Notes under the pieces: model-generated
The model's database searches: none
The model's input: only the letters and a program-made list of their open reading frames with translations
What the model was told of the DNA's origin: nothing
Position numbers and translations under genes: made by a program
Assembly: GCA_950295325.1 (NCBI GenBank)
Contig: OX485803.1
Location: 29,627,554-29,691,553 of the forward strand
DNA length: 64,000 bases
From: Polytrichum commune
Lineage: Eukaryota > Streptophyta > Polytrichopsida > Polytrichales > Polytrichaceae
Direction of reading: 5' to 3'
In this document: positions 18,111-42,953 of the stretch, piece by piece
Numbering within the stretch: the first letter of the stretch is position 1
Layout: every line of letters starts with the position of its first letter

Positions 18111-18590
18111 TGTCGCGCACCTCTCCATGAGGAATGCCCGAAACACCATGGGCACAAGGGGGACCCCGGAGTGACACCCGGGACTTGTGGCGCCGTTGGT
18201 GAGAGGGCCCAAGTGATCCTAGTGTGGGTGAGGGCCCCGGGCGTTGGGAAAGCCTCCCACCCACGGAGACTAGGAGGCACAAGGGTAAGGCCATGAGCTA
18301 TGCGTAGCTCATGGCGTGGTGAATCTAGAATGCTCAAGATCACCTCAATCAGAGGTGTGAGCAAGGAGTTATGGCCATTTGAGTGGGGCGCTGTCCCGGG
18401 ACAGCGCCCGGGTACAGCAGTGCCTGGGAGTGCCTCCCGGGACTGCCAAGGTTCAAACAGGCATAACTTCCTCAATACTGCTCTGAATGGGGCAAGTGAG
18501 GAGTCCATCGGCATCTACGTGAAGCGTAGATGAAGATGAAGTGGTCGGTTGTTAGCATCAAACATCATACAAGGAAGTAATGATGGTCTG

Positions 18591-20331: not shown

Positions 20332-21226
20332 ATGGCAAATACCAGAATAGAGGTCATGTCAACAAAGGCATCTTTCACCGAAACGAAAATGAATTCACTA
20401 CTATTCGCACCTTTAAGTGCGGATGGCTCTAACTTTCTAGAATGGGCAAACCATGCGAAAGTACTCTTGAGTGTAGAGGATCTCGTTAAGACCCTCATCC
20501 ACTCACCCCCAACGCCGACCACCACCAACGACGATGACGAGGATGACGATGACACCACAACCCCAACAAGAACAAGGGCCCCGGCTGCACCTAGGATACC
20601 GGAGGTAGCCAAATGGCACGTCCTCATGATCTTGAGGTGTCACCTCGAACCATCATTGAGACTCCAATACCTACAAGTTGAGGACCCAGCGGAGCTTTGG
20701 TTGGAACTACACGCCCGATTCGACCATCAGCAAACGACTTCCCCAACTTCTCAGCCTTCAATTCCGAACTCCACCGGATCATCGCTCAACTCCGAATTTG
20801 CGGTGTCGAAATCTCGGAGGCAGAACAAATCGAGAAGACGCTCTCCACCTTCCCACCCGCAACGGCAATCCTCTCGCAGCAGTATCGCAACATGACGTTC
20901 AAGAAGCACTCCAAGCTCATGGCTTACCTCTTACTGGCCGAGAAACACCATCAGCTACTCCTTCACAACGCGGAATCCCGACCAGCAAGAGAAGTACACA
21001 CAATAATCGCCAAGGTAGAGGAGGAGGAGCCGGATGAGATAAACGGAACTACGGGAGCAATCACACCAATGCCGGGAGCGGGAGCGGGACCACGGCGGGA
21101 CGACTCACCAGTCCACCACCACGCGGAAGTTCACATGACCGAGGCCTCACGTAGGCCACCAAGAGGTTCTTTTTGCAAAACTCCACCCAAATGGTATAAC
21201 AAACCTGCAACAGGGAACCCACATAG
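20332..21226 (+). pseudogene. copia gag, N-terminal part, frameshifted
   Basis: The frame from 20332 opens with FAPLSADGSNFLEWANHAK, the usual start of copia gag. It runs through WHVLMILRCHLEPSL and LWLELHARFDHQ, and includes an acidic DDD/EE patch near residue 70. Close to 20735 the homologous reading moves to another frame (FNSELHRIIAQLRICG, then FPPATAILSQQYRNM), so a frameshift has occurred, probably with loss of a short piece. The frame is then cut by the DNA transposon after the codons for HRP. Joining across the 4-bp duplication restores the frame to the zinc-knuckle part at 37159. Confidence 0.85.
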
Positions 21227-21230
21227 ACCT
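21227..21230. repeat. left target duplication (ACCT) of the DNA transposon
   Basis: ACCT is repeated at 37155-37158. Removing the transposon and one copy joins the gag codons in frame (HRP to RYFPP), which fixes both ends to the base. Confidence 0.9.
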
Positions 21231-21343
21231 AACACCATATTCAAAATTTTGGGAGATTTCCAGTCTCCCAATTTGATGACAGTTTAGGTGGAGTCGACCT
21301 AAAATGTACCTAAACACTATATTCGTTAATCGGAGACTTTTGA
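21231..21343 (+). repeat. left terminal inverted repeat of the DNA transposon
   Basis: It begins AACACCATATTC and matches the reverse complement of 37042-37154 with scattered mismatches and small gaps. Strong blocks are AAATTTTGGGA, CAGTTTAGGT and GAGTCGACCTAAAATGTACC. An internal variant of the tip, AACACTATATTCG, lies at 21313-21325 and is mirrored in the right repeat, so each repeat holds two tip-like motifs that could be transposase-binding sites. Confidence 0.88.
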
Positions 21344-21717
21344 AAGTCTCAAAATAAAATATGCCCATAGTTTGGGATGCCAATATTGTGGGCATATGGA
21401 ATGTTGGAAACATCAAGAACATGACAATTTAAAAATTTGCACGTAAAGAATATTCCTAATACTAAAAATAGAAAATTGCAATTATAATGAAAACGTGAAC
21501 TCCATGTGGAAAATAACAAGCGAATCTAAAAAACAAATGGTTTATGTCATTATAGAATTTGGGGTGCGCATCCCATAAGTAAGGTTCTTATGGTTTTGGA
21601 TGGCACATCCCAAACGTATACCACAATGGAGTGTGACAAGTCTACTAAGTCTATTAAAAACCAAGACTACTAAGCACTAATGTTTTTTCCCGCCGTTGAC
21701 TTTCACCTATGTTATGT

Positions 21718-24700
21718 TTACCCATCTCCATCTTCCGCTTCATATCCATTCTCGGCGTCATTTTCCGCAGCTGCAATACGTGCCAAGTTGTCTTTGGCAA
21801 AATCTATATGTTTTTGGGGGATGGTCATTGCTTCTGTGTTGGAACCTTTGCGCGGCTTCCAAGCACAAAGTATAGTATCCGTGTTTATCCAAACCGGTGT
21901 GTACGTTGAGTCCACTGTCCACTTAAAATTCTTTTTGGTGTCCCAACCTAAATAAGTGCGGAGCACGTTGTGGTCTTTAGTGCTTGGACGACAATATTCC
22001 ACCTCAATTTGACGAAAGTTGGGGCTAGTTCGAACAAAATTGGGTGAAGACAATGCTTTTACCAACCAAATTGGCTTGGTATGCTCCTCATCCCCTGCTC
22101 GTACGAGGACCAAATACCCTTCATGGCAATCAACACCTACACGAAACGACGGTGCCGGTCGATTGCGGGCAGGGCCAACGTAATGCTCGTCCATTGCGAA
22201 CTCTTCACGAACGTCTCCATTGCTGAAAAACATAGTATCGAACTCGACAACCGTCAAACGACTTTGTGGCCAAAATCCTTGTGTCAAAGTCGTACGGGTG
22301 TCGCCACCAAGTGTCATCAAGGCTGAGCGAATGCGATCCCAATACGCGATCAACGGTTCATGGGTATCTCTAACACGTCTTATGATGTCCTCCTTGCACA
22401 ACTCTTTCCAATATTCAATGAATCCGGATATGCCTTTGATGATTTCCGGCCCATTCCTCATGGGTTCGGGTTTGCAAGGCTTTGGTTCCCCATCCGGGAC
22501 CAAACATTTCCCATCATTGTTTTGACGCCATACGAGTATACCATCATCCGGGCCCCAATTAGGAGATGTGCACAAAAGCTTGAATTGCATGGCCGGGAGA
22601 CCATCGTCCCTCATATTAAATCGGAATTGTTGTGCTTTGGTATGCCCCACCAAACGGTCCCCTCCCTTCAACATGTATGACTTGATGAAGGCCTTGAAAT
22701 CTGGTACTTCCTCAATCAAGTGCGGAATTACTGGCATATGGTCCAAATCCATATACGATTTCATAAGAAGAGGTATGGTTGGAAAATCTTCTTCATGCAA
22801 CTTCATGCTCCACCGTCCGAATGATGCATCAATGTCGTCGTGTGTATGTCCCACCATCAAGAAAGACACAAACACCTCCTTGAAGATTCCTTTCGCCACG
22901 AGCAATGACCAAAAACAAAATACGTATCGACATTTGTTGTCCTTCGTACAATTATCAAGTTGAACGTGGAGAGTTGGAGGCAATGGTTTTGCACAAATGG
23001 GCTCTCCGGGTGGTTCTGGCAATGACGACATACAAACCTCCTTCCCCGCAAGCACTGCCTCATAAAGGGATGTGGTTCCACAACCATCAAAAAGTGCACG
23101 GGAAGAATGTACTGGTGGCTTCTCAAGATCGCGCAACAGTTTTGCAAATGAACCCACCGTGTGGTTAGCATCCCCAGGGTAAAAATCCAAACCATAATGG
23201 GCATACTTTACGTCCCCATGGCCGTGGGCAATCATACCTGGAAAAAACAAACGATGCGTGACCAAAATAATCAAATAACCACTAAACGGATGTATGGAGT
23301 TGGACATTTGCCAAACACACCCAAGAAAATTGGATAGATTTTAAACACGTAGTTGTGATTTCATACAAACCTGTGACAGCTACGGGCAACTTGAAGAGAC
23401 CATCCGTGGCCTTTATTTTGCGTGCATAACAAGGGCATGCGGTTTTGGCGTGGTCCATTTTATCATGGATGACTGTTAGAACCTCTGTGGGCCTCATTAT
23501 GGATAGAGCACGATTCTTATAGTAATCTTGACGGTGTGCCTCTTGATTGTTGACATGTTCAATATATTTTTTCTGGTGTCTGGAATGAGATTCAGTGCCT
23601 ATGGGGTGGGCGTCTCGAAGACCTTTGTATTTTTCACACGTCGTACATCTAGCGAACTTGTCCCCGGGTCTTCTCAGAATGTATTCCGCAAACTGCTGGT
23701 TTTTAATCACACTCAACTTGGACAAAGAAATGGACCCACATCCCGCTATGCGACCCACTTCATTGATGTCCGTTAAGATGTTCTTCCATTTTGTGCCTGT
23801 GGGCAACACCATTTGAACAACCTTCTCCCCTGACGACAATGTCCTCGTCTTGTGGGGCATTGTATCGGCCAATGGCACTATGATGGTGGATAGTGTCGCG
23901 GACGCTTGCAGTGTAGCCTCCCTAGGTTTCTTTGTGCCCGAGTTGCCATGAAATCGAGAGCGGCGACCCAACGATGAATACTTTCGAAACCTATAAAAAT
24001 CAGCCTTGGAGACGGCGTGGATGGTATACCACGCTGTACAACACACATCAACATTCTCAAGTGTTACCACCTTATGCCCATGGGTATCAAGGTGCAAATT
24101 TCTGTGGACCTCGAGTTTCTTAGCCGACCTCATACGAAAATCCGCAAGCCACATCTCTTGACGCAGAGATCTAATTTTCTCCCGCGGGAAAAATTGGCAA
24201 CATTTCCTCGCGCAACAATCCTTGCCGGACACTAGACGGATAGATTCGTCCCCCAAAAGCCGATCCCGTCGACGCTCCTTATCTCCGCGAGGCACACGGT
24301 TTGAATCATATCTACGGAGGCCTTTGCGAGGACGTGTTGTGGCCAACAAAGCTAATTGTGTTTGCTTATGCCGCCGCTCATGATCCCACAAACTCACTTC
24401 CTCATGTAGAACTTGACGAAGCGGCCATCGACGCAAGGAAAATCTCCATGTCACCGGGACCTCTACCGGAAGCAAAGAGTTCAAGATGCACACGCCAACA
24501 TCATCGAGACCTAGGGCGTTGGCATCGACACAATCACGGGGATTGGAGTTTCTACATATGCCATCTGCCACCGGGACACCAACCTCGTTGAGTAGAACGA
24601 CATCAAGGCCAACCCATTGCTCCCTCCCGAAACCGGCACACAACGGAATGTCATCGTGGTCATCTCCGGAATGCAGAGATTGTTCATGGACTTCCAAAGA

Positions 24701-24901
24701 TTTATGGGAGGATGTATCCACAAACACCCCCCTCACGTTTGGCACACCATTACTATCTGCCGACGGGGAAGACAGTTCACATTCAGCATCGGATGACGAT
24801 GCATACGTCGACAACTCCAATGAACTATCACCCACATGCAACGCCATACAGCTTAGACCAACCACCAGGAAATGATCAACCCAACCACCACCGCAATGCA
24901 T
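21718..24901 (-). CDS. transposase of the DUF7869 type, one intron
   Basis: Two frames join across an intron at 23238-23370 (minus-strand donor GTTTGT, acceptor TTTTTTCCAG, 133 bases), giving one frame of 1017 codons including stop. About residues 1-200 are acidic and Ser-rich. A Cys-containing region follows (ARKCCQFFPREK, then VCCTAWYTIHAVSKADFYRF, helix-turn-helix-like). Candidate catalytic acidic residues are in HDKMDHAK (480/483), QLDNCTKDNK (605) and GHTHDDIDA (644-647). The last two motifs are hallmarks of the DUF7869 family of large mobile-element proteins. The tail is highly acidic. No internal stop is seen, so it may be functional. The start at 24901 is the first ATG of the frame; another lies at codon 19, and an upstream exon may exist (see 26031-26273). 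Confidence 0.8.
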
Positions 24902-24941
24902 ACAAGAGAGGATAGATTATATGTGGAGAACGCCACATGCA

Positions 24942-26017
24942 TTTACGAACGCGCGTTCGTGACCTCAGTAACTTCTCCATGTACATCTAGCGGCCTTCGA
25001 GATCCCTCAAATGAGAGCACCCTGAGGAATATCGGTTTTGTAGGTCAAAGTACCATGTTGACTTAGGAACCTGCGCGATATACTATCACAAGAGAACACT
25101 TGTCCATACGCACAAAATTAGCAAATCTGCAGATGATGCCTGAATCAACTCCAACAATATTTTGAACACTGAGCACCTCCATATTGTGAATTTGATTATG
25201 TTGACTTTTGCGTATCTACCCATTTACGAACGGAAGTTCGTAAATGGGTGCGACCCCGTGTTCACATCCTTCACGGACGAGCGATGAGCATATTTTTCTT
25301 GCTATTCTATGTTCGTAAATTACTGCCATACTGATGTGCATGAATGAAGATGTGTTGCTGGATGCGTAGACAATAATGACATGTATTTACGAACGAACGT
25401 TCGTAAATTCCCGACCATCAGGTACCAATAGATACGGGTCAAATAAGTATGTATGATCCTCGAAGGCATATTTACGAACGCACGTTCGTAAATGACTGTC
25501 ATGGATTAAGTGCATGTAACTAACCATATGAGTACCTCAATCCAGAACATGCTCTCATGTGGGATTTACGAACGCACGTTCGTAAATTACCGACCATCAG
25601 GTACCAATAGACAAGGGTCAAATATGTATGTATGAACCTCGAAGGCATATTTACGAACGCACGTTCGTAAATAAATGCCATGGATGATGTGCATGTGACT
25701 ATCCATGAGTAGCTCAATCCAAAACATGATCTCCTGTGGGATTTACGAACGCACGTTCGTAAATTACCGACCATCAGGTACCAATAGATAAGGGTCAAAT
25801 ATGTCTGCATGGTCCTTGAAGGCATATTTACGAACGCACGTTCGTAAATAACTGAGATGGATTACGTGCATGTGACTATCCATATGAGTAGCTCAATCCA
25901 GAACATGCTCTCATGTGGAATTTACGAACGCGCGTTCGTAAATCCTTGCCATGTCCAGGTCCGAATCGTTTGTCTAAACCTGAAGCTCTTCATCTTTACG
26001 AACGTGCGTTCGTAAAG
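24942..26017. repeat. palindrome array upstream of the transposase gene
   Basis: Ten palindromes of 18 to 32 bases lie at 24943, 25218, 25385, 25470, 25564, 25649, 25741, 25826, 25920 and 25994. Most are ATTTACGAACG, two variable bases, CGTTCGTAAAT. Starts from 25385 to 25920 alternate spacings of 85 and 92-94 bases because they sit in three tandem units of 177 to 179 bases, two palindromes per unit. The spacers are similar between units (ACCGACCATCAGGTACCAAT; GAACCTCGAAGGCAT). The copy at 25218-25249 has 14-base arms around GGAA. The array ends about 40 bases before the transposase ATG, a position suited to operator sites or to a 5' intron. Confidence 0.93.
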
Positions 26018-26030
26018 TTCCGGTATTTAC

Positions 26031-26273
26031 AGCGGTATATGCGGTAGGTACAGCCTGTACTGTACCTGGGTGGTGTAGGGTTGGCGCACACGAAATGGCT
26101 TGAGCGCGTTCGGTGAGGTCTGTAGAGCGCACACTTGCATGTGCCGCTGAAAAGAACTTTGTTGTGGGGGGAAGAGCTTTAAGTACTTCACCCCGCTGGT
26201 TCAAAATTCCTTGGATGATCTTTAAAAAGCGGATTCCCGCCGCCTTCTTTGACCTAACAATCTCCCATTCCAT
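26031..26273 (-). CDS. candidate upstream exon of the transposase gene
   Basis: The minus-strand frame starts MEWEIVRSKKAAGIRF and stays open for 81 codons to a donor, GTAAAT, directly after a codon boundary (phase 0), matching the phase of the three cargo introns. A palindrome (25994-26017) begins within about 15 bases of this donor, the same arrangement as at the cargo gene's donors. The frame is coding-like but has no recognised domain. The matching acceptor near 24900 is not obvious, so the exon may belong to a separate small gene. Confidence 0.3.
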
Positions 26274-26557
26274 CCATGCGGAATTATATAAATAGCACTG
26301 TCATGTATGGAACATGCCTTGCATGCACGCCAACATATTGAAAATATATAAATCGGTTGCACACCTTAGTTGTGACCAAGGTCTCATCGAAATATATGTA
26401 TATACATATATATATACACATAATATCTAAATATGGAGATGGTTAACATTGAATATTTAATGATTTGCGACTAAGGTATGAAGTCCAAGTTAATTGACAA
26501 TTGATGCCTAATAAAGTTATGAATGTCGAAGTCATAGATATATATAGATATATATAG

Positions 26558-26592
<35 letters not shown>

Positions 26593-27574
26593 CACAATGA
26601 GGTCAGAGTGGCTAAGAAACATGTTGCGGACGCCCCTAAAATTATAGGTATCATATGTTTCACATCAAAAAATGACCGTAATATGGTCACCAAGTGCATG
26701 AATACAACTAAAAAATGGGTTAATCCATAATGGCTTGCACTAGGGTAGATTGAGGACACTATGAACTAATTATACCTAATAATATATGTAAGTTAGGTCT
26801 TCTTTCAAATGGTATCTAGGTGTGAAAATAAGGAATTAAAATGGCACGAGTAGGAAGGATTAATCAATTTGTAATGCTGCATAGTATGATAGCGTAATGA
26901 TCATTGAGACTTGAAACCATACTAGCTACCGTAACGTTGAATCATAGTTACAATTATTATGTGTTTGACGTCCTATGGGAAATTGAATTTTCGTCCACTT
27001 GTTGTAAGGGTACGGATACACATTGGTTAAATGTTTATTAGATCATTGGTGATATTTATAGTTGAATGCATTGTTCGATTGTTAGTTTAAGTTGACACAT
27101 GATTAAATGAGTTGAGGTCCTATTGGAAATAGACTTTTAGGGTTTGGAGAAATGCACTATTAATTTGGAATGGTGCATACAATAGTATGTACTTACAATT
27201 AATATATGTTTTGCATCCTATGAGAAGGATGTGCATCATCATAGCTTAAAGTGTTGATATAAATTGAAGTCTTAAGACATGCATGTTATTATAATAAGAT
27301 CGTGGATTGTGTGATGAAATTTCACTCATAACTATTAAGGTGAAAGTGGGAATATTTGAAATTTCACTTATCACCTAAACCAAAGTTTTATCTCAAATCT
27401 ATTAATTTGGAATGTGAAAATGACAATTGGCATCATTATCAATTATTATAGTTGTTATGAACGGAATTAAGCATTCTCCATCCAACCAACATTGGTAGAC
27501 CAATTTGACCTGCCCTCAGAAAACAACATGGCCACATATAAGAAAGGTTGGTAAGATAAAAAGATGCAGGGATG

Positions 27575-27630
27575 TAGGGTTTAGGGTTTGCGGTTAGGGT
27601 TTAGGGTTAGGGTTTAGGGGTTTAGGGTTT
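27575..27630 (+). repeat. short interstitial telomere-like tract
   Basis: About eight units of TTTAGGG with slips (one TTAGGG, one with an extra G, one interrupted by TTTGCGG) lie inside the DNA transposon. This is the plant-type telomere repeat and supports a plant or streptophyte source. The tract is too short to be a former chromosome end. Confidence 0.8.
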
Positions 27631-28220
27631 GTGAAAGTTGTGTATGTGGTATTGGGTTTAGGTTTTAGATTGTTACTAGGATACATTACACACACAAACA
27701 ATATTGACTCCTAAAAAATCCTTGTAATTGCATTAACTTCATTCATCGCAAGCTCGTAGTTGATGCTAGCAAAATAGTTGACCACTCCAAAAATGCATTA
27801 GTTCAAGCTAACACCTAATATTGGAACTTGAATTGACATCCTATCGTATAGCAACTCTGCACAATTTCATATTATTATGAATTCTTTTTTGCATGTAATA
27901 TTTATTTGAGGAACCATCGAATTAATTGAAAGATATCTATCTCTTACATAAACTATATTTTAAAACACCATATACATATCTTTGGGGGTGGATTCTACAT
28001 TGACAACCTAGGAAATGACATGCATTGTTTATTACGAATTAACTGAGCATATTTTCCTAAAATATGTTTACAAGGAATCCAAATGTAGAGGTACTAAGGA
28101 AATAAAACGAGTAAAATTCATGTATTTGAACTAAGCTTTTCAAGTTAATGCCCTAAACGCGTCCATTACATATAAATATGTCAAAGCATGAGAATAACAT
28201 GAAGGGTTCCAATATACAAC

Positions 28221-28303
28221 CATCTCCCATCTCCCATCGCATCCCATCCCATCCCATCCCTTCCCATCACCTCCCATACCATCCCATCCCATCTCCCTCC
28301 CAG
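28221..28303 (+). repeat. CCCAT-type microsatellite
   Basis: Repeated CCCATC and CCCAT units, some with TCC variants, occupy this stretch. It lies in the non-coding middle of the DNA transposon. Confidence 0.75.
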
Positions 28304-29258
28304 CCCTAGCCAGTGGAGTTGTGCCACGTGGCAGGTGCTGGGAAACCCTAGCGGCGCACCTACCTCCCCGCGCCCCTTCCTCTTCTCCTCATTTGTCATT
28401 TCGAGGAGAGGAGGAGCGGAGCGCTTAGAGAGCGAAGCTCTTGCTTTTTTTAGTCTTGAAGTTTTAAATTAGTTTTGTTGCAAGTTTTGAGAGATTTCAA
28501 ATTGAGAGCTTGTGTGAAAGCTTTTGAGTTTGTGAAAGCTTTCATTGTGAAAGCTTGTGAGTTTGTGAAAGCTTTCAGTGTGAGAGTTTGTGAGTTTCAA
28601 AAGCTTGAGAGCTTGAGTAGGAAAGCTTCAGAGTTTCGGATTGAGAGCTTGAGGGTGATCTTTAGAAGCTTGAGAGTTTAAGGAAGCTTGAGAGTTGAAG
28701 CTTGAGAGTTTAGGGAAGCTTCAGAAGTGAAGCTTGAGAGTTAAGGGTTTGCTTAAGAGTTCAGAAGCTTGAGAGCTACAAGGTTGTGAGTTTTGTGTAC
28801 ATAGGAGTATACTAGGGTTTGTATATAAGCTGTGAAGGCTTGAGGTCTGCATTAGAGAGTTATCTGAGTGTGCATTTGAAAGGCAATTGAGTGTGCAGTT
28901 GTGAGGATTTCTGGGATTTTCAGAAAGAGAAGAAGCAGGGTTTGAAGTGTGCAGCATTTCAATGTAATTTGTTATCCTTTCCAACTCCTCTCACATTCTG
29001 AAAATGTTGCTTCTTGAATTCAATTTCTTTTGTTAGATGCAATGTGAATTATCACTCTCTTCTTCATGTTTCATTCTGCATCTCATTCTGCATCTCAATT
29101 GCTTTATGATTGAAGATTTGCATCATTCTGACCAAAATTTTGCAGGCACGGCTGCAAGCAGAGTAGCTAATAAGTGAGTTATATACATATACATATATAT
29201 ACGTATTCGTATATATACGAATACATATATGTACGGACAGGGGATCCCAAAACCATCA

Positions 29259-29842
29259 CATTTACGAACGCTCGTTCGTAAATGGACATACACTGCATAC
29301 TGAACCTCCATTTACGAACGTGCGTTCGTAAATACGCACTCCACGTTCTTTGAAATGATCTATATTTACGAACGCACGTTCGTAAATATACTCAAAATAT
29401 CACTCAGAAGGAACCTTAACTTTAATATGAACCTCTATGAATATCTAAAGAACAAATATAATTTTGCGAACACCAATAAGACAAATCACATGTACTTACG
29501 AAAGATAAATCAACCAAATGTCCGGAAAGATAGACCAAATGGACATACTTACGAACGCACGTTCGTAAATGAATCCAAATCTATAAAACCCATATCTTTT
29601 ACAAACGATCGTTCGTAAAAATAACCAAATATATTACAAACACAATCATGACGAGTAATCTCTTTGATCTTCATATCTTTTACGAACGCTCGTTCGTAAA
29701 CTTAATACTAAAAATTTATATGATCTTGCAACCCCTCATTTACGAACGAACGTTCGTAAATATAATTACATCAATTGCAAAGACGCATTAACACTGCGTA
29801 GTCTGTGGGATATGCATGTCACTTACGAACGTTCGTTCGTAA
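29259..29842. repeat. palindrome cluster upstream of the cargo gene
   Basis: Eight palindromes of the same family start at 29259, 29310, 29361, 29549, 29597, 29679, 29738 and 29823. The copy at 29361-29390 is 30 bases with perfect 14-base arms extending to TATATTTACGAACG. Central dinucleotides vary (CT, TG, CA, AT, AA, TT), while the ACGAACG arms are almost constant. Unlike the array at 24942-26017, the intervening sequences are unrelated to one another, so the palindromes are not just part of a duplicated unit. The last copy lies about 29 bases before the acceptor of the ATG exon. Confidence 0.93.
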
Positions 29843-31167
29843 AGTCACTAATTGTTTATATTCTGTTGCAGATGGCAAGATCAAGCAGAAGCGCCATTGA
29901 GATGTTCGCGGTGAAGGTCGATGGCCTCCCAGAGTCGGTGTTAGACGATAACGGCAACGACAACTATGTCCCCAAGGAAGACTTCATGGGGGAGTGGACG
30001 GCACTGCCAGAGAAGATCGGGGACGGCCTCTTCTGCATGCGCTTCACCTACGAGCTGGAGACAAGACCGGACCAGCCCGAACAGTGGGTTCAAATGAAGA
30101 CGTGGGAGATAGAGTCCATAGAGGCCCAGGGGGAGTATGTAATTCTGGACATGAAGAACAAGAAGGATCATATCAACCTCTTGTTGCATTTTCAGAAAAA
30201 TACCTTTTCCTACCAATACGCCACCAATAACGTAGCGGAAGATGCCAAGCACTTCGACCTGGACGGCCTCTTCTCCAAATATGCGTTGAGCCCATACTGG
30301 ACGGCAAGGAAATTGACCGCCCTTGCATTGAACATCTCCAAATACAACAGTGTGGTCACTGAGGCAAACAAGAAGAAGAAGAGCCCCAGGAAACCATCCA
30401 CATCAGGGGCAGGAGGATCTAGAAGTGCACCCAGGCCTGTGCCTTCCGCTAGCAGGGCGACGGAGGGCCCCAGTAGACACTCCACGCCATCGAAGAGGAC
30501 AAGGGAGGAGATGGAGAAATCGGGAGTAACGGAGACCGCAGAGGTGACCTCGCCTGTCGTAATGCCCACCCCCTTGAAAAAGGGTGAGAACCCTGACGCT
30601 GTGAAGGCCACGAGGATCCTTCGAGACTTCAACAACTACTCGAAGGATTGCTGGCCCATGGGACGCCACTTCACATTCAACGTGGACTGCTTCAAGTGCG
30701 AGATGTCCCCCAACAAATGGGTGGTTCGCTCTCGCGAAAGCGGTGGTGTGAAATGGCAGATAAATAATCTAATGAACAACGTCAAGTGGGACAGGCAGAC
30801 CGTCTGCGTCATGCCGAAAGGGCTGATATCCCGTCCGACGGAGAAGGACTGGCCACGGATCCAGAATGGAGAGTTATGGATCATAGACGGCCAACACAGC
30901 TTGGAGGCGTCCTAGATAATTCTCAAGGACGACAACTTCCAGCATGAGCTGAAGGAGGACTTGCGCTACTGGAAGGCGTTCTTGGTGTGGTCGGACGATT
31001 GGGACAAGCTGCGGAAGATATCCACCTTCCTCAACTCCGGCAACAAGATCAAGGCCTTCGAGGCGTCGTGGGCAGCCAACATAGTGGCTGCAAGGGACGT
31101 CTGGGTCGCCCACGGGTGCCCCCCTAAAGAAAGGGAGAACGCGAAGACGCCGTCTCCACAATGGAAG

Positions 31168-31288
31168 GTGAGTTTACGAACGAACGTTCGTAAATATCTT
31201 TGACATTCAAAATTTCAAGTTCTTTGACATTCAAACTTATGAACGTGCGTTCGTATTTTGTGCGTTACTGATGTCTTTCTTGCTGCAG
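31168..31288 (+). other. cargo-gene intron 1 with two palindromes
   Basis: The donor is GTGAGT at 31168 and the acceptor TTGCTGCAG ends at 31288; both sides are phase 0. A perfect 22-base palindrome (31173-31194) begins five bases after the donor's first base. A degenerate copy (31237-31256) lies about 32 bases before the acceptor. The two could pair with each other or fold alone, bracketing both splice sites. Confidence 0.75.
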
Positions 31289-32607
31289 GCATTCTGCGAC
31301 GCGATGGTGGACAAGTTCTCCTCCATCGACATGAAGTCTACAACAACCAAGTCTGTCCTGGAGCTCAAGGGTGAGCTCCGCCTCATCTGTTGCAACAGGA
31401 ACACTTGGAAGTTGTGGACACAATTTTTTGATGCGCACAGCTCGGGCGATCTGGTCAACCCCGACACCGAGGAGAAATACAGCGCGGAGAAGACCGGGGA
31501 GGTCCCTCCACTACTGAGGGAGTTCTTCAGGTCCCTTCAAGGGTTAACAGAGTCCGAGTTGCAGAGGTGCGCGGTGCATCTTCTTGGGAACACAGTGGGA
31601 AGAACCATCCCATACCCGAAGATATTTTTGAAGAGGCCAAGACACAAGCCCGGCACGTTTTCCATCAAGGAATGGTGCGAACACCGCAAGCTGAAGACTG
31701 CTGCAATGAGGGAGTTGAGCACCCTAATACCAGAGTACGCACTCATCCTAGCCGACGGGGACATTAATTGGGCCAGCTGGAAGATGTTCAAGGTCGACTA
31801 CAACATCTCCGGAGCCTCAATGCGTTGTCTTGTCAAGGAGCACGCCTCCATTTTGAAGCAGAAGGGGAACAAGAGGACAAAGAAAACCGAGACGGATCCC
31901 CAGGAGGTGGAGCAATACAGAAGTTTTTTGGCGCGGAAGAGGTTGGCCACATTCGAAGGAGTGGCCAGATTTTGTTTGGTGACAACCGGAGTGGAGAGGG
32001 TCACATTTTCCAAGTGGGACCGGACCATGAGCAGGGCCGAGGTGAGGGAGGATCGACGGGGGTGCCCATTTGCCCTGATCGATTTCAGGGGGATCCCCGG
32101 TGCGTCGAGGCAGGGGGGGAAGGACATGCCTTTCTACGACCCCTTCATGGCCAAGTTCAAGGAGCACAAGTCTCCGGACATGAGGGAGCCTCACGTTTGG
32201 CTGTGGATAGTGGAGCAGGAAAAACTCTCTGCTATAGTCGACCTGTACGAGAAGATGATCAAATTCGAGTACAGCATCTTCCACAGCACTTACGTGCCCG
32301 CCAAGACGGAAGGGATCGTGGCCATCAATGAGGCCAGGGGAAACAAACAGGTGGGGGCGGTCAGCCTCGTCTTCTTGACGTACAACGCGCTTCGGAATGG
32401 GCGAGCTCCTGTCAAGGCGAACACTACATTCAAGAAGATCTACAGAATCCCCCTCCCAAGGATCTGCTGCAGGAGACCTTGTACACTGTCTTCCCGGCGA
32501 TGGAACTCAGGTTGGAGTTCTACGTCTTCGTTTTGCAAAGCGTGGCAATAAGCGGAGAGACCGTGTACAACGTTTGTGGCGGCAGCAAGTTCATGTACGC
32601 TGCGATG

Positions 32608-32748
32608 GTAAGCTCTCCAACTAATATTTACGAACGCTCGTTCGTAAAGTTCACCTCAACTTGTCTTGGGTTTTGATGACATTGTTTCTCGTCGTTGATG
32701 TTTACGAACGCACGTTCGTATATTCTAACGTATTTGCTTGAATCTCAG
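32608..32748 (+). other. cargo-gene intron 2 with two palindromes
   Basis: The donor is GTAAGC at 32608 and the acceptor GAATCTCAG ends at 32748, phase 0. A perfect 22-base palindrome lies at 32627-32648 and a second, with imperfect outer arms, at 32701-32720. The layout matches intron 1: one palindrome near the donor and one near the acceptor. Confidence 0.75.
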
Positions 32749-33723
32749 ATGCTGGGGCTGGTCGTCAACAACTTCATTGAAGCCATCGACAAGGAGGACT
32801 TCCACGTGCACAGGGCGAAGGCCTCCACGATGGACCTGGAGGACATGTCCCTCCCGAGGACGGACATCAACATGCCCGTCGACGAAGGCATGCCCGCCAT
32901 GGAGACGGACGACGACGAGCCCGCGCCCTCCTACAACGTCGAGGCGATCCTCCGATCCTTGGACGTCACTCCTCTCCGCATTTTGGCGCCGTCGGGAAAT
33001 CCATCCGACGTGCAAGGGACTCCGGGTGGATACACGGGGTCGTCGGCGGGGACAACCCAAGATGTCCTCCCCGTGAGAACGTCTGGAGCGGAGGCATTCG
33101 GCACTCCCGGGGGATGCTCGACATCCGTGTCGCCCAGGCCGATCGTGGTTCCCAAGATGGAGAACCTCGACCTTCTGGACCAACGGTCCCGACCGACGTT
33201 GGACCAGTACCGCAACACGAGGCGGAGGATGAAGAAGACCCCCTACGTGGAGCTGCCTCCGGGGGCAATCATCGAGGTCTCCGATGAGGACGAGGGCGAC
33301 ATGGAGATCATGGTCGAGCTGGGGGTAGACTTTGACAAAAACAAGAGGGTCAAAGAGGAGGCATTGTCCGTCGCCGAGCTTAACGCCAAGCTCGAGCAAA
33401 AGATGAAGGAGGACATGGCGAAGGCGGCAGAGGAGAATGCCAAGAAAATGTTCGCAATTCAGGAGGAGCTGAGGCAGTCGAACGAGAAGACGGACGCCAT
33501 CCTCGCCATGCTCCAGCGTATGCAGAGCTTCTCGGCGCCCCCCCAGCCGGCCTACCCCTTCCCTGGAGGATACCCCTCCCAATCCCCTCCACCAGGCATG
33601 TTCACCGGAGGGCCTTCCCGCCAACAGGCACCCCACCCTACGCCTGTTGGCACTCCTCCGCCCCCAGAGGTTCCCTCGACCACCTCCCACGATGCTGTGG
33701 CAGCGGCCATCCAGGAGGACGAG

Positions 33724-34123
33724 GATTTACGAATGCGCGTTCGTGAATCTTCAGGTCCTCCAGTCCTCACCCCTCCCCCTTCAAGGGTAGGACTGCCCTC
33801 ATACACCAATACGTCGTCTTTCACCGTCGTCCCCAGGGTAGTAGACAGACATGGCGATGACTCTGCGCGACACACTGACATGGTCATTGTGGAGGACACG
33901 CAGGGGAGCCCCAATGACGCACCAGGGGTGCATGGGATGGACGTGGAAGAAACCCATGCGGTGTGGATGGAGGATGTCAGGATGGACGCGCTCGACCTGG
34001 GCGCCGAGGAAGAAGACGCGCTGCGCATCCAGGCGACACAGGCGTCTCAACCGGAGCGTGAGGCAGAGGCCATGGAGACAGAGGCGGCTGCAGCTGTGGA
34101 GGTTACGAACGCGCGTTCGTTAA
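33724..34123 (+). repeat. two palindromes inside coding exon 3 of the cargo gene
   Basis: A 26-base copy with two mismatched pairs lies at 33724-33749 (read as DLRMRVRES) and a 21-base copy at 34103-34123 (read as VTNARSLI). Both are read through without a stop or frame change, although the same motif in another frame would encode YERAFV. They lie in low-complexity linker regions, where an insertion would be tolerated. Confidence 0.75.
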
Positions 34124-34182
34124 TCGTTGAGGAGGGACCTGCTGCTCGGTCCAGCGCCGCTGCCCCTCCCCCCGATGACGAG

Positions 34183-34800
34183 GTAACTCTCCTTTGAGAA
34201 TACCATTTTTTTACGAACGCGCGTTCGTAACCTCTCTAACATCGCGATGTTTTTCTCTTCATCGACATCCAGTGGCCTTGCGAGAGCCCTCTTCAGCGGT
34301 CCCCCTTAGGGCCGAACAGTTTTGTAGGACACGGCATCATTTTGCCTTAGGAAAATGTGATAGACTATCACGTGAGAAATGTAAATATTCAACGGATTAA
34401 TATATGAGCCTATGTTATCTGCATCGCGTTGCTTCAAATTCTCTGCCCTCGACCCCTTCTCGTATATTGTATATGTTGATGAGATTATGTTCATTCTTGC
34501 ATACCCACCTCATTCGCGAACGCTCGTTCGTGAAAGGCTGCGACCCACTGTCCACCTCATTCGCGAACGACCGCTCGTAAATGTACGTGTAGCCGCGCTC
34601 ACGAACGAGCGCTTGTAAATGATGCGCACCGCCCCCGCAACCTTCATTCACGAACGCTCGTTCGCAAGTGTGCCCTTGAGCACATTTTCCTTGCACTCTC
34701 CTCACTTCCTCGTCTTTCCCCATAATGCACCGTCTTCATTTTCTACGCAAAATTTCATTATTGGATCATAGAATTAAACTAGTCGAGTTGTTCATCACAG
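34183..34800 (+). other. cargo-gene intron 3 with intact and degenerate palindromes
   Basis: The donor GTAACT at 34183 follows a GAG codon and the acceptor TTCATCACAG ends at 34800. A palindrome at 34211-34230 lies 28 bases past the donor. Four more at 34513-34534, 34558-34583, 34597-34620 and 34647-34668 have altered arms such as TTCGCGAACG or TTCACGAACG. The matching side is often not compensated. If the intron is retained, the protein ends at a TGA at 34195. Confidence 0.7.
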
Positions 34801-35568
34801 GACCCCCCGGAGATTGGTCGCAACCCCTCGACCAGTGGACCTCCCACCCGGAACAAACCTTTCATCGTTTTTGACCTCAACGGGGTGTTGTGTCACACCC
34901 AACACATCCCAAGGATCCCTACGCGTCCCTTTCGTCACCCCGACGAAAGGGACTACGACGGCGAGCTCGACACCCTCATTAACCGCAAGGCTGTCCGCGC
35001 CCGTCCCGGCTTGCGTGACTTCCTTCGCGAGGTGGTCGAGTTCGCTCACGTCATTGTGTGGAGCTCCATGGTCATGGAGAACACCGAGCCCATCGTGCAC
35101 TTCTTGTTCCGCGATCTCCCGAGCCCTTGCCTCGTCCTTGGCCAAGAGGACTGCGACGAGCTGCTCGACGAGAAAGGTCAACCGGTGCCCAAGTTTGGCG
35201 GTCGGGGCGGAGGACAACAGTTCCTCAAGGTCCTCCGCTCGAGACTCTGGCGAGGCGTCCCCCGTCTGCAAGGGACGCCGCACGGGTGGTGGCCGACTCC
35301 AGAGAACACCGTCCTCATCGACGACAGCCCCACCAAGAGCGTCTTGAACCCCCCGGGCAACGTCATCTTCCCGGACACTTGGACCGGCGATAGGCAAGAC
35401 ACATTTTTGGTCGATAGGCTAGCCCCCTACCTTAGAAGGCTCGTGCTCCACGCCGGTAGCATACCATTTTTTGTTAGGTCCAACCCCTTCGGCAATGCGG
35501 CGCTAAGCCCCCGCGATAATGTATTCAAGAGCATCATGAGGCTCGCCAAACTCAATAAATTGATTTGA
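34801..35568 (+). CDS. FCP1/SCP-like phosphatase exon of the cargo gene
   Basis: This open exon of 255 codons contains FIVFDLNGVLCHT near residue 25, the nucleophile motif of the FCP1/SCP branch of HAD phosphatases in the DLNG form common in plant relatives. It also has RPGLRDFLREV, HVIVWSSM (motif II region) and NTVLIDDSPTKS (motif III/IV). Such enzymes usually dephosphorylate Ser residues in proteins, including the RNA polymerase II tail. The domain looks catalytically complete and has no stop before 35566. It could instead be a separate gene starting at an ATG at 34885, but that would lose the nucleophile motif, so the spliced start is preferred. Confidence 0.75.
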   Translation, partial: DPPEIGRNPSTSGPPTRNKPFIVFDLNGVLCHTQHIPRIPTRPFRHPDERDYDGELDTLINRKAVRARPGLRDFLREVVEFAHVIVWSSMVMENTEPIVHFLFRDLPSPCLVLGQEDCDELLDEKGQPVPKFGGRGGGQQFLKVLRSRLWRGVPRLQGTPHGWWPTPENTVLIDDSPTKSVLNPPGNVIFPDTWTGDRQDTFLVDRLAPYLRRLVLHAGSIPFFVRSNPFGNAALSPRDNVFKSIMRLAKLNKLI

Positions 35569-35599
35569 AATGCCTCCATGTTTTTGCTTGTATCATGTG

Positions 35600-36680
35600 G
35601 TTCACATTTACTAATGCTTGCTTCGTTTTTGGATGTCTTTTGTTGTTGTGATTGTTGTTGTTGTTGTTCTTGCCCATAGTCTGCCCCCATATGCGACGCC
35701 CCTGTGGTCGACGGCCCTTCCCGTCCCCTCTCGCCCCCTGCCTCCCCTTCCTGCGACGTCACGGACTTCCAAATGCCATCCCTCTACCAGTTCTCGGCGG
35801 TGGACGCGGCCTTGGCCGTGGATTACTCCCGCGACATCGGCATCGACGACGGCGTCGTCAACAGCCCGCCCCCCGCACTTGTCGCCCGCGCCTACGCCCC
35901 GTCGCCCTCCCCCCTCTCCAAGGAGAAACGGACGCTCGTTCGTTTGGGGCACCTCTCGCCCTCTAAGGACGACGCCGTCGCTCGTCGCGGGCCGAGCCGG
36001 CGTCTCCGCATGGAAGGCCCCCGTTGCCACACCTCCCCCGCCGACTCCGTTCCTCCCCGCGCAACGTCCTCTGCCATCGTGAGCCCCCCACGCCTCGACT
36101 CCCCCCCGCCACTCACCAATACAATAGTTCCATCGGCTCTGGATGCTCCCGTCGACGCCCCCCTCGTTCCCACCGTTCCCCGCATGGACGTCCCCAAAGC
36201 CAAGGTGCCTCCTCAACCCTAAACCCCTTTCCCGCTTTTGCTTCCCTTGTCTTCCGTTTGCGTGCCGTTCTCTTTACGAGCGCCCATCCCAAACCGCCCT
36301 CATTATTTTCCCCACTCCATTCCTATTCTTATCTTCCTATGACGTTGTTTTGCAGGTGGTTACCCGCTTGCTTGGTGCCCGGCCCTCCTCCACGTCCTCC
36401 TTGGATAGGCACGCCCTCAAGGCCGCATCTTCCGAGTCCGATCGTTGTCTGGCCCTCTGGAGAAGCGCAAGACGTTCCCTTTCGCAAACACCCTCGCATT
36501 CTACTTATAATACCACCTCTTACAATTCGGGAGCGCGTCCTGAAACATGCAAGAACGACACATATTCCTGTCCAGGCAACACACAAGGATACAGTCGTGG
36601 GCCTGAGATTTTTAGAGCCATGGAGGCCGCCAAAAAAAAGGGCTTAGCCGCCAAAAAAAATAGTGGGTCGGACTAGTGTG
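35600..36680 (+). CDS. open frames after the phosphatase exon, uncertain gene
   Basis: A frame at 35704-36222 (172 codons) is Pro/Ser/Ala-rich, follows an acceptor-like TGCCCATAG, and includes VTDFQMPSLYQFSAVDAALAVDYSRD, which has ordinary protein character. A second frame ends at 36674 after an acceptor-like TTTTGCAG at 36347-36354. No domain is recognised. These may be further exons of the cargo gene after alternative splicing, or a second small gene. A weak palindrome relic lies at 35926-35945. GC content is high, so open frames arise easily here. Confidence 0.3.
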
Positions 36681-37041
36681 ACGTCTAGAAGCGTACTAGT
36701 GGGACGGACTCCCTAAATGGGCTTAGGTGTAGAACATATTTAAGTGCTTACTTTCTATGCTATTCCAAGTTACTCAAGACATTGATGGTATTTCCATTAT
36801 AATTGTATTTCAATCCCAATTAATTCATTCAACTTCCATTCATTCTTCGCACCTTCCCTTCCATTCATAACGAGTTGTGATTTCATACGCAACTATTTTC
36901 ATGTATGCCTCACATTTTTGTTCACTTCCATGCCTTTATGTATAATAATAGTAGCATACCATTATACATATGGGATTTTTAGTCGTCATTACTGGTCCAA
37001 TTTTGAAAGGTGCATCCTTATATAGTCTCATAATCAACAAA

Positions 37042-37154
37042 AAGTCTCCAAATACCGAATATAGTGTTCCTAGTGGGTACATTTTAGGTCGACTCAACCT
37101 AAACTGTATTTTCCCAAAATCATGGAATTTTCCCAAAATTTCGAATATGGTGTT
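37042..37154 (-). repeat. right terminal inverted repeat of the DNA transposon
   Basis: It ends GAATATGGTGTT at 37154, the inverse of the left tip, and includes the matching inner motif CGAATATAGTGTT (37058-37070). ACCT follows at 37155. The repeat forms the first codons of an apparent long open frame starting at 36970; those codons are transposon DNA, not copia gag. Confidence 0.88.
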
Positions 37155-37158
37155 ACCT

Positions 37159-40100
37159 AGATATTTCCCACCTAAGCAAGAGCAGGCTAGACCAACCTCG
37201 GGAAATTGTCACAAGTGTGGACGGAAAGGGCATTTTGCAAAGGATTGCAGGGCATCACAATACATTGTAGATATGTTCAAGGAATTGCAAGAGCTACGTA
37301 ATAAATCTAGACAGAACTACAACTTTGAGCCCTCGGACATGCCTGATCTTGATTTTGATGTGGAAAATTTCATGGCCATCCGGGAAGGAGGCACGTCAAC
37401 CCAAGACGTTGCCCTCCTGGATAGCGCATCAACTCACACAATCTTAACTAAGGCACAATTCTTCCACTTCCAAAGTGAGAAGTCCTGGTCCACCTATAAG
37501 ATACTTACAATGGCCGGAAGCCGGACGCTAAGGTTCCGGGAGGGCCGGGCAACAATTATCTTGCCCGGGGGATTTCCCCTCGATTGCCCGAAGGCAATGT
37601 ACGCCCCAGACGCCCCGAGGAGCCTGATCATCTACCGGGATCTGAGGGCGAGGAATATCCACCTCTGCACAGCGATGCAGGGCGATGAAAAAGTAATCGA
37701 GCTCATGCAAGGACCCCAGGTCATTGCCACCGCTAACGCGGGCCTCGATGGACTTTACAAGGTTGTCATAAAACCCTTGGCATCTAGCCCCACCCTAGGT
37801 GAGGAAGAGGTTTGCATGGCCGCGTGGGAGAGAGGTCCCACGTCGGAGCGCAACTTGGCGCAGGGGGTGTTTGTAGACACTAAAGCCGCCAAGCCATACA
37901 TTTGGCATTCTAGACTAGGGCATCCAAGAATGACAGTATTCCGGAGGATGATCCCATTGACCCAAGGTCATACTCTCACAACGGACGACGCCAGGAAAAC
38001 GCAAGAATGCGTGGCCTGCATCCAGGGAGAACTAATCCGGAGACCGTCACATTGGACACTACCTACAGAATTACCTCCACCACTGTTCAGGATACACGGG
38101 GATATATGTGGCCCGATAAGCCCACCTTCGGGAATATTTCGCTACTATTTCGTACTCGTTGACGCATCGGGAAGCCATCTCGAGGTCGCACTACTCTCGA
38201 CCCGGAACTTAGCCTTCCCAAAACTTCTATCCATCCTCATTAGGTACAAAAACCACTTTCCCGATAACCCGATCAAGCACCTAAGGATGGACAATGCCCA
38301 GAAATTCTGATCCCACGCGTTGAGGATTACTGCAATGCATCCGGGATTAACCTTACGTATTCAGTACCCTATGAACATTCACAAAATGGCCTCGCAGAGG
38401 CATTTGTGAAGAAGATCCAACTCGTAGCGAGGCCTTTGTTGCTTCATTCCCGATTACCACCTAATATGTGGGGCCACGCGGTCTTATACGCCGCGGCCCT
38501 CCTCAAACTACGACCCACCCTCCTCAATACCCAAACACCTTACGAACTCCTATTCGAGAGGCCACTGTATGTGGCCCATATTCGAACCTTCGGTTGTCAA
38601 GTTTGGGTCCCTCCCGGACCCAAAACGGCACAAAATAGGACCACAAAGACACAAGGGGATCTACGTCGGTTACGATTCATCCTCGATCATCCGTTACCTC
38701 GAACCTGCAACCGGGAATTTGCTTAAGGCTAGATTTGCTAATTGCAAGTTCCTAGAGCACGTATTCCCATCACTACCTTCAACCAAACCTAACTCACCTT
38801 TAAACTTCGGTGCACCGGAGATACTTACCATGAATCCCGACCCACCTACATCCTTAATCAACACCAAAACATCCAAACTCCTTAACCTCAAGGCCTTAGC
38901 CGAGAATGTCCCGGACGGATTCTCAACCGAGGAAAGGGCTATTCAAAATGCCATCCCTGGTACCGGGAACATCCTACCTAAAAAACGCCCACCTACCAAA
39001 ACACCTACAAAACGGACACCCAAACAACCCAAGGTTCATTTTACTACCGAGTCCTTAGACTCGAGTTCTGAAACCGACCCAACCACATTAGAACAAGCCA
39101 AGAAGACGAAAGATTGGCCACAATGGCAAACAACATTAGAGGCCGAGTATACCTCCCTCCGGAAACACAATGTGTTCTCGGACATTACGGACGACCTTGA
39201 AAAACCACCAATTGGCCACAAGCTCATCTTTACTCGCAAGCTAGACTCGCAAGGTCGAATACTAAGGTACAAGGTAAGACTAGTAGCCCAAAGCTTTACT
39301 CAAAGACCCGGAGTTGATTTTGACCAAACCTACTCACCTGTGATGGATTGTGTCTCATTCAGATACATACTTGCCTTGACAGTCCATCTTGCTCTAAAAA
39401 TCTACCTACTGGATGTGGTAACTGTGTACCTTCACGGTACCTTGGATTCAATCCTACATATTAATCCTCCACCTGGATTCCTAGAATCCGTGCCTAAGCC
39501 AAAACCGGGACGGTTTGTAGGCTTGAGGATATGTAAGGCCTTGTATGGCCTCAAGCAGTCAGGCGGAGCCTAGTACCACCATCTCTGCCACTTTCTCATA
39601 TCACAAAGGTTTTATACACAACCCCACCTTACCTTGTATTTTTACTTATTGCACCAAGGATGGTTTTGTGATCATAGCCACATATGTAGATGATTTGAAC
39701 ATCATCGGGACATCCGAGATGTGCAAATTCGCCCAAGACATTTTAACCAGCAAGTTCGGCATGAAATGTCTTGGCCCTATTACATTCTGCTTGGGACTCC
39801 AAGTCCACCATATGCAGGGTGACATATTCTTGCACCAACAAGCCTACGTACAGAAGGTACTAAAGATGTTTCAGATGGAGGACGCCAATCCATTGGCTAC
39901 GCCAATGATTGGCAGGAGCAAGACGAACGAAAACCCGTACCAACCTTGTGAGGAAGAGGAGGAGGTGATAGATAAACAAAAGTACCTCACCGCAGTTGGT
40001 TCATTTACCTACCTCACGACCCACACCAGGCCCGACATCGTATTCGTCACAAGCATCTTGGCTAGGCATAGCCAAAATCCCACGATGCGGCACTGAAATG

Positions 40101-40455
40101 GAGTCAAACATCTCCTAAGGTATTTACGAGGTACATCCGACCTCGGATTATAAGGCAACAATGCAAAATCCAGGAGGAGAAGAAACCAATGATCATCTTC
40201 GAAGACAATGCCGCTTGCATACAACAAATGTCTTCGGGCTTCATCAAAGCCGACCGGATTAAACACATTAGTCCCCATATCTTTAATTTCTCTCAAGACT
40301 CGATAAGTAAAGGTCAATTAGAGATCCAAAAGGTAGAATCGGAACATAATGTAGCCAATATGCTTACCAAAGTTCTCTCGGTATATAAGCATAAGAAGTT
40401 GTTACATGCCGCTGGGATGAGGTCACTCCAAGACTTAGACTTGCCTAAAGATTAA
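37159..40455 (+). pseudogene. copia gag end and pol: zinc knuckle, protease, integrase, RT, RNase H
   Basis: The reading begins RYFPPKQEQ, then the CCHC knuckle CHKCGRKGHFAKDC. The protease is next (ALLDSASTHTIL, with DSAS where DSGA is usual). The integrase has WHSRLGHP and the zinc pair CVAC, then core segments HGDICGP and LRMDNAQKF. A frameshift near 38308 leads to the rest of integrase. The RT starts in the frame at 38569 and includes DVVTVYLHG, KALYGLKQS and, after another frameshift near 39570, YVDDLNIIG. RNase H ends with EDNAACIQQM and DRIKHISPH before a stop at 40453-40455. An extra stop lies at 40094. Confidence 0.93.
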
Positions 40456-40923: not shown

Positions 40924-41421
40924 GTCTGAAGTTGCTGGGGGTTTCTAGGCCTAGCAGCTAAAGGAAAATGTCTACTTGGCCCCAACTCTTGGTAGAGAGA
41001 CAAGAGGTTTCTTGACGGTGGGGTAGGGGCCCCGCCTAGAGTCCTAGAGGCTTATATGGGTGAGGTGGTGTGGCCTCACCCACCCGAGGCCGAACGGCAC
41101 GGCCTCCATGGGCTTTGGCCCATTGTGAGGCCATAGTTGCCTAGTATGTTTCGGGTTGTTGTAGTGTTGCTCCGGCAATGCGATGATCAACATAGGAGTG
41201 GATTTCCATGGATGGAAGTCCACATCGAAGAAACGAGTTACGGATTAAAGAGTGAGTTCCGAAAGCAAAGTAGGAGGGTTGGTTCCCTCCTATGAACTAT
41301 AAGATCCAGGGTAGGAGGAGCTAACCATTAGCATGGCGGAATGCGAAGGGTTAGCGCTCGTAATCTTTGCTATAAACAAAAATTGGCAAGATTATTAAGG
41401 GGGCTAGCAAGGGTTGCGACA

Positions 41422-41927
41422 TCAAAAGCACCGAGGAACTTCCTCCCTTGATTTGTCAATACATTAGTTGGTGTTCCGAAACGTGCCAACACACGATCCA
41501 AAAAAGCGGCCGCGGCCAATTCTGCAGAATTTTGGGGTAGAGCAACAAACTCAATCCATTTGCTAAAATGCTCCACCATCACCGACACGTACTTTGCTCC
41601 ACGTGGTGTGACAACCACGTGGAGGTGCAATGGTCTTGCGAAGTCCAGCGACCAACGGTAACCCAATCCCATGATAGGTAAGGACTGTAACTGAGGTGAT
41701 AAGGTGTTAAAGTTAGATCTCATTCGGTCACAAACTTCACACCTCCCGACATAAGCAGCCACCTGCTGATACATGCCAATCCACCAATATTGGCCACGCA
41801 ACATTGAATGTGTCATGCATATGCCAAAATGACCAAGTTCCTCGTGCACTTGTCGCACCAAAGAGGCCTTCTGATCCGGCCTAGGGACAATACGCCTTGT
41901 CCCATCCGGCCACAATCGAAATAACAA
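41422..41927 (-). pseudogene. gypsy integrase, zinc-binding and first part of the core
   Basis: Minus-strand reading gives the zinc-binding HHCC region (HEELGHFGICMTHSMLRGQYWW, then CEVCDRM) and the catalytic core start (SLDFARPLH, where an aspartate is expected near SLD). It continues through MVEHFSKWIEFV to TNQGRKFLGAF, where the second catalytic acid would be TDQG, so N replaces D. It stops at the solo LTR X and continues at 18105. The loss of that acidic residue alone would inactivate strand transfer. Confidence 0.9.
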
Positions 41928-41940
41928 ACCGTTCTCCCAA

Positions 41941-42170
41941 TGGAACCTTGTTATTCAATGTTCAATCCTATCCCTTTTTAATGCCGAAATAAACGAAGGA
42001 AAGGTCCCCTGCTGGAGCTTATGCAATACGGGAAGATCTTCCCATATATCCGCAATAGCTTGAGGTCGATCAGTCTCATCATCATCATCATCTGAGCCCT
42101 GTATCGGAACCTCAACAGTCGCACCAAAAAATAAAGTGAAGTAAGCAACCGCATGCCAACCTAAAACCGC
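41941..42170 (-). other. gypsy spacer between RNase H and integrase
   Basis: Degraded coding sequence with stops links the RNase H end to the integrase start. It includes a GAT-repeat coding for an acidic patch near 42080. No separate gene is present. Confidence 0.4.
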
Positions 42171-42875: not shown

Positions 42876-42953
42876 ATGACCTAGGTATGCCAGTCAGTCA
42901 TGGAAAAACTTGCACTTGCCATGGTGCAAGCGCAATCCTCACCGTTGCAAGCG

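Follow-up and report, generated by a model that had tools for sequence, protein, structure and literature searches.

A palindrome with clade-specific arms, dispersed through a giant DNA transposon of Polytrichum commune, as a candidate target site of an element-encoded protein

In a 64,000-nucleotide stretch of the Polytrichum commune genome (contig OX485803.1 of assembly GCA_950295325.1, positions 29,627,554 to 29,691,553; hereafter the window, whose own numbering is used throughout), a giant DNA transposon carries, between 24942 and 34668, 29 full copies of a palindromic site of the form TTTACGAACG-NN-CGTTCGTAAA (at most 4 mismatches in the 20 arm positions). The element encodes a DUF7869 protein, presumably its transposase, and, on the opposite strand, a four-exon gene, ORF2, whose relatives allowed us to follow the site beyond the window. 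By sequence comparison, the palindromes are conserved, fixed in geometry, co-varying in their two arms and tied to the ORF2 clade in which they occur. We consider it moderately likely that they are target sites through which the ORF2 protein recognises its own element.

Number, geometry and placement of the sites

All 29 sites lie inside the transposon (21230–37155), in line with an original prediction of about thirty copies within one giant element. At ≤1 mismatch, the arm TTTACGAACG was found 54 times in the window, compared with 2.33 expected and a maximum of 6 in 100 shuffles; 51 of these matches fall within 24942–34656, and the remaining three, at 22204, 36273 and 57696, are single half-sites. 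Stretches with 6 mismatches at 36273 and 38579 were rejected as noise. The predicted absence of the palindrome from the rest of the window thus holds for full sites, and the predicted range (24942 to 35945) was correct at its start, its end corresponding to a copy with 7 mismatches at 35925 that lies beyond our cut-off. The window holds 31 perfect inverted repeats whose arms, of at least 9, are separated by 2 nt, 21 of them inside 24900–34700; among the 10 outside, the 8 that we inspected were AT runs or other sequences.

When each arm was allowed ≤2 mismatches, the central spacer measured 2 nt in 29/29 sites, and the 8 cases of longer arm spacing were all pairings across neighbouring sites. 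The arms are perfect in 15 of the 29 sites and the inner AACG-NN-CGTT is almost invariant, with free bases at the centre; the near-constant arms of the original prediction stand, and its variable centre is reduced to two bases. Given that an A precedes the arms and a T follows them in 21/29 sites each, the site may be 24 bp long. For the 22 sites outside a tandem array, the flanks are on average 27.5% identical (best pair 52%), compared with 87.9% for the arms and 25.2% (range 23.9–26.4) for the flanks of random positions. The excess over random is small, and an internal duplication, represented by the best pair, supplies part of it. A simple satellite, in which all copies would share their flanks, can be rejected because these flanks differ.

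Most of the sites (27/29) are non-coding. Ten fall within the 4.1-kb region that lies upstream of DUF7869, seven of them in the tandem array (25386–25942), whose 179-bp unit holds two sites; eight lie in the 0.87 kb before the ORF2 ATG, nine in the ORF2 introns (2 + 2 + 5) and two in ORF2 exon 3 (Table 1). These are the three settings that had been recognised from the letters alone. Full sites are absent from ORF2 exons 1, 2 and 4, from 21230–24916 and from 35569–37155.

Sites in relatives and paired changes of the arms

Three protein searches with ORF2 returned 27, 60 and 100 matches, amounting to 132 distinct proteins, all without an informative name. Many of these extend past splice sites, their tails being translated intron, and it is from such peptide tails of predicted proteins that we deduced the palindromes of the relatives. 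The window palindrome is visible in each reading frame (FTNxRS-stop, LRTxVRK and YERxFV), and signatures of all classes, defined by patterns that, like those of the clade counts below, were set after inspection of the tails, occurred 75 times in 2,208 amino acids (83 pieces) versus a shuffle mean of 0.059; 11 of the 75 were scored as coding, in 8 proteins (P0031, P0068, P0080, P0097, P0104, P0113, P0124 and P0130) in which no exon end was found and several of which are visibly tails. In a motif-free test, to which this post hoc choice does not apply, a perfect 9-bp palindrome with a 2-nt centre could be encoded in 57 of the 81 tails of at least 8 amino acids, compared with 22.2 in shuffles, some of the 57 (for example P0011, P0015 and P0027) being chance palindromes. 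The other proteins among the 132 yielded no intron-derived part with the cuts applied.

A tree of ORF2 exon 2 with 60 rows (59 proteins of at least 380 amino acids plus the window; shorter rows were excluded) resolved three clades: clade 1, which includes the window (21 rows, support 100/99), clade 2 (16 rows, support only 80/67) and clade 3 (23 rows, support 100/100). Clade 1 relatives have the same arms as the window. Clade 2 tails read FTDxRP-stop and YGRxSV, corresponding to TTTACGGACG-NN-CGTCCGTAAA, and some read LRPxGRK (TTTACGGCCG); clade 3 tails read FGSxDP, LGRxTQ and WVxRPK, which are the three frames of a single palindrome, TTTGGGTCG-NN-CGACCCAAA, with the variant TTTCGGTCG. The CG-NN-CG core and the TTT/AAA ends remain constant across clades while both arms change, and they change together, which answers positively the question, raised with the original prediction, of whether paired arm positions vary jointly in related elements. 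Counted per site, the arm position at which clades 1 and 2 differ is A/T in 32 cases, G/C in 6 and mixed in 1; four of the six G/C sites belong to tree-placed clade 2 rows and two to short unplaced rows. By our reading, at least four double-sided arm changes are needed.

Among tails of at least 12 amino acids, the class of their own clade was found in 29/32 for clade 1, 9/13 for clade 2 and 8/10 for clade 3, counts that are not independent events because the rows share ancestry. Clade 3 classes occurred in 0/45 tails of clades 1 and 2, and clade 1 and 2 classes in 0/10 clade 3 tails. The frame LRTxVRK is common to clades 1 and 2 (the clade 2 pattern fits 16/32 clade 1 tails, and the reverse is true of 3/13) and was therefore excluded from the pair counts. 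Introns 1 and 2 still carry sites in families whose proteins are ~36–56% identical.

An Rfam search gave no match at the gathering score, and viral contigs contained no exact clade 1 or clade 2 palindrome and one clade-3-type match (L003). Within prokaryote genomes (257 billion bases) the exact palindrome was present in two stretches, with ~0.2 expected by estimate, which is near chance. One relative, P0022, joins a piece of ORF2 to a stretch that almost matches a frame of the window lying beyond the element (17571–18218, minus strand). It reflects either the nesting of one insertion in another or a chimeric assembly, and its source is perhaps the same organism.

The ORF2 protein as candidate reader of the sites

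The splice sites of ORF2 are compatible with phase-0 introns. Where the window copy has an in-frame stop the relatives keep open frames, and a frameshift leaves exon 2 one base below a multiple of three. What the original prediction took for a cargo gene does encode a phosphatase domain, but judging from the fit of splice sites and phase it is more likely the 3' part of ORF2 than a gene of its own, and is probably spliced on as its 3' exon. Apart from this exon, searches of Pfam, NCBIfam and PHROGs with the ORF2 pieces and their relatives gave nothing above the curated cut-offs. A PDB sequence search produced no match for A1 and four chance-level rows for A2, and neither the ORF2 N-half nor A2 or A4 had a relative among the viral contigs (row sets: A1, 23/27; A2, 38/60; A4, 17 of the 23 clade 3 tree rows).

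Exon 1 may hold a ParB/Srx-like fold, for which our confidence is weak to moderate; the best matches of the ORF2 structure model are ParB, Noc and KorB structures, weakly. The arginine of Box II (P-motif), which is required for nucleotide binding in ParB-CTPase proteins (PMC12704722), was not found at its presumed place, where S or T follows GQH in 17/17 rows, the equation of this residue with Box II being our own reading of the alignment. Exon 2 is predicted to hold an MT-A70/beta-class methyltransferase-like fold. DPPW/DPPY, the catalytic motif of MT-A70/beta-class N6-adenine methyltransferases, is absent from 132/132 ORF2-related proteins, many of which are fragments; DFRx[IFL]P is present in 70/132, and its D and F are invariant in the 38 rows of A2.

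That the arms are kept as protein-binding or partition-like sites, as originally suggested, is supported by their recurrence in the introns of relatives, by the joint change of the arms and by the weak match of the model to ParB, Noc and KorB. A function of the palindromes in chromosome partition was rejected, as nothing supports such a role. We propose instead that an ORF2 ParB-fold dimer would bind the dyad with one arm per subunit, leaving the two central bases unread, and that the protein would load at the clusters before both genes and within introns and, once loaded, would control chromatin and transcription of its own element. The likeliest net effect would be a VANC-like protection against host silencing and the second likeliest a KorB-like autoregulation; with its own site version in each ORF2 clade, the protein/site pair would serve as a private address. 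Binding, dimerisation, spreading and anti-silencing are steps that we infer, and we put the probability of a net anti-silencing role at about a third. The proposal in its fullest form, in which a ParB-type loader with an adenine-methyltransferase-like domain and a phosphatase reads clade-specific palindromes as a private self/non-self address, extends along the 16 kb of its own element and maintains permissive chromatin against host 5-methylcytosine silencing, coevolving across at least three clades, is possible but tentative.

Other readers of the sites, or none, have to be weighed against this. The outer 3.7 kb on the left and 2.5 kb on the right of the element contain no full site, and nine sites lie in introns of ORF2, where relatives retain theirs; this makes it unlikely that the DUF7869 transposase binds the sites for cleavage, synapsis or self-repression of transposition, even though ten of the 29 lie upstream of its gene and repeated subterminal sites are bound by many transposases. 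RNA hairpins in introns and leaders, acting on splicing, export or small-RNA production, are quite improbable. All four sites that were folded, out of 29, formed hairpins of 8–10 bp closed by a 4-nt loop (z −2.8 to −3.8), and many sites are intronic; such folding is, however, expected of any palindrome, hairpin loops usually tolerate changes in length whereas the spacer here is exactly 2 nt in every site, and the ten sites upstream of the DUF7869 gene lie in DNA that is possibly untranscribed. A functionless spread within the element, as a small selfish or satellite repeat, would agree with the seven sites of the 179-bp array and with the slight excess in flank identity of the other 22. The excess, however, is minor and the internal duplication is part of it, and the intron 1 and 2 sites persist between the divergent families described above with both arms replaced together, so we give this reading hardly any credence.

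Binding by ORF2 could also serve repression and copy-number control rather than protection from silencing. Autoregulatory operators would be placed as these sites are, in front of each of the two genes and within the introns of ORF2 itself, and KorB, which slides along DNA, exerts repression on promoters as far as 1.5 kb away (PMC11790492), an outcome opposite to that of VirB, which provides a bacterial precedent for a ParB-type protein as antisilencer (PMC10770331). Nothing decisive speaks against such a KorB-like role, which we rate as somewhat unlikely; it has the binding step in common with self-recognition by ORF2, so that the weights of the two overlap.

The likeness of ORF2 to bacterial ParB, Noc, KorB and VirB lies in the ParB-fold match of its model. 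The bacterial sites parS, NBS and OB are palindromic, with several dispersed sites for one clamp protein. ORF2 differs in lacking the Box II arginine at the presumed place and any significant profile match, and in belonging to a eukaryotic element with methyltransferase-like and probably phosphatase parts attached. The claim that no described element has this layout must be qualified. VANDALs have a MULE-type transposase where the window element has DUF7869, and VANC proteins contain DUF1985/DUF287, which were not among the Pfam families at E ≤ 1 for the ORF2 pieces and relatives. Their logic is nevertheless alike: as in the window element and its relatives, where family-specific short motifs cluster in non-coding DNA, VANDALs are DNA transposons whose own non-coding DNA repeats a short motif many times, in part as tandem repeats, both upstream of the transposase gene and in introns, and related families pair a related protein with a different motif, but the VANC21 motif is 9 bp long, non-palindromic (YAGTATTAY) and in a single orientation (PMC5735166).

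Accessory proteins with ParB-like and N6/N4 methyltransferase parts have been described in giant transposons of algae, such as Sola1-1_Ec32 of Ectocarpus, and are also said to occur in green and red algae, the authors suggesting that the transposon encoding such a protein is also what it binds and modifies (PMC12477816). Sola1-1_Ec32 resembles the window element as a giant DNA transposon with an accessory gene opposite to the transposase; the gene order fits, both ORF2 domains being assigned by fold comparison only, and the parts of that paper cited here name no target site for such proteins, nor did any emerge from the searches of the open-licence literature. The Sola superfamily has a 4-bp target duplication (PMC3627910); an ACCT duplication would agree with this, but the ends of the window element also fit 2-bp readings.

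No eukaryotic transposon with palindromic ParB-style sites whose arms co-vary and differ by clade was found in the open-licence literature, in searches that were partly aimed elsewhere. The principle of a private motif and an element-encoded protein is already known from VANC, and the kind of protein has already been published; candidate target sites are now supplied for the ParB + methyltransferase proteins of algal transposons, and because these vary naturally by clade, the self-binding proposal is testable by a simple binding swap. If it is true, eukaryotic transposons would use bacterial ParB logic, loading at palindromes, for self-recognition, unrelated to VANC.

The transposon and its surroundings

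Between the terminal inverted repeats of the element, a gapped alignment covering 112 bp of the left end gives 78% identity, and the target duplication is likely the 4-bp ACCT; 2-bp CC or TA readings fit too. For the left gene, PF25273 (DUF7869) is the only Pfam match above cut-off, and the presumed transposase role follows from this domain in an element with terminal inverted repeats. The transposon appears to have split a Copia-like element in two, with a gag-like frame to its left (20332–21287, plus strand; seen by eye and without a Pfam match) and a Copia zinc knuckle and reverse transcriptase to its right (36970–40455, plus strand). By eye, the joined flanks read through in one frame.

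Table 1 Coordinates of the transposon, its genes and the palindromic sites in the window
Feature	Position	Strand	Details
Whole DNA transposon, 15,926 bp	21230..37155	.	Imperfect terminal inverted repeats TAACACCATATTC ... GAATATGGTGTTA
DUF7869 protein gene	21718..24901	-	PF25273, 9.1e-40; one intron 23238-23370; 1,016 codons open once spliced
Ten palindromes upstream of DUF7869 gene	24942..26016	.	Starts 24942, 25223, 25386, 25471, 25565, 25650, 25742, 25827, 25921, 25995
Eight palindromes right before ORF2 ATG	29261..29843	.	Starts 29261, 29311, 29365, 29548, 29598, 29679, 29739, 29822
ORF2 exon 1	29872..31167	+	PH/FERM-like domain, then putative ParB/Srx-like fold with DGQHSLEA; in-frame stop 30913 in window copy
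ORF2 intron 1	31168..31288	+	Palindromes 31173 (directly after GTGAG), 31236; counterparts in relatives
ORF2 exon 2	31289..32607	+	Helical region, then predicted MT-A70/beta-class methyltransferase-like fold (DFRxIP, FGG[ST]K); frameshift near 32445
ORF2 intron 2	32608..32748	+	Palindromes 32627, 32701; counterparts in relatives
ORF2 exon 3	32749..34182	+	Disordered-looking and coiled-coil region (by eye); palindromes 33726, 34102 in coding sequence
ORF2 intron 3	34183..34800	+	Palindromes 34210, 34513, 34560, 34598, 34647; diverged duplicate of 24942-25340
ORF2 exon 4 (probable)	34801..35568	+	NLI-interacting-factor (NIF)/FCP1-like phosphatase domain, PF03031, 3.2e-16; phase 0 with exon 3

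Within the transposon, 24942–25340, beside the transposase start, and 34210–34700, in ORF2 intron 3, form a diverged direct duplication; two sites align between the duplicates, and the second is longer by ~100 bp and has two extra sites. A short run of TTTAGGG-like repeats of the plant-telomere type is present at 27575–27631. Taken with the Copia and Gypsy elements and a P450 gene of the window, such repeats point to a plant or streptophyte alga as host. Past the phosphatase exon, proline/serine/arginine-rich open frames without a Pfam match (35680–36676, plus strand) are possible further exons or a further gene.

Outside the transposon, frames for a Gypsy-type integrase and RNase H, with a match to C5 cytosine DNA methylase (PF00145, 2.5e-8) upstream of them, lie at 41373–44741 on the minus strand and are a candidate single element. 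Gypsy elements with a captured Dnmt3 have been described in the charophyte Klebsormidium nitens (PMC5890265), and the resemblance of the window stretch to them is no more than a hint as to the host. Cytochrome P450 frames (PF00067) at 59088–60958 on the minus strand are probably a host gene.

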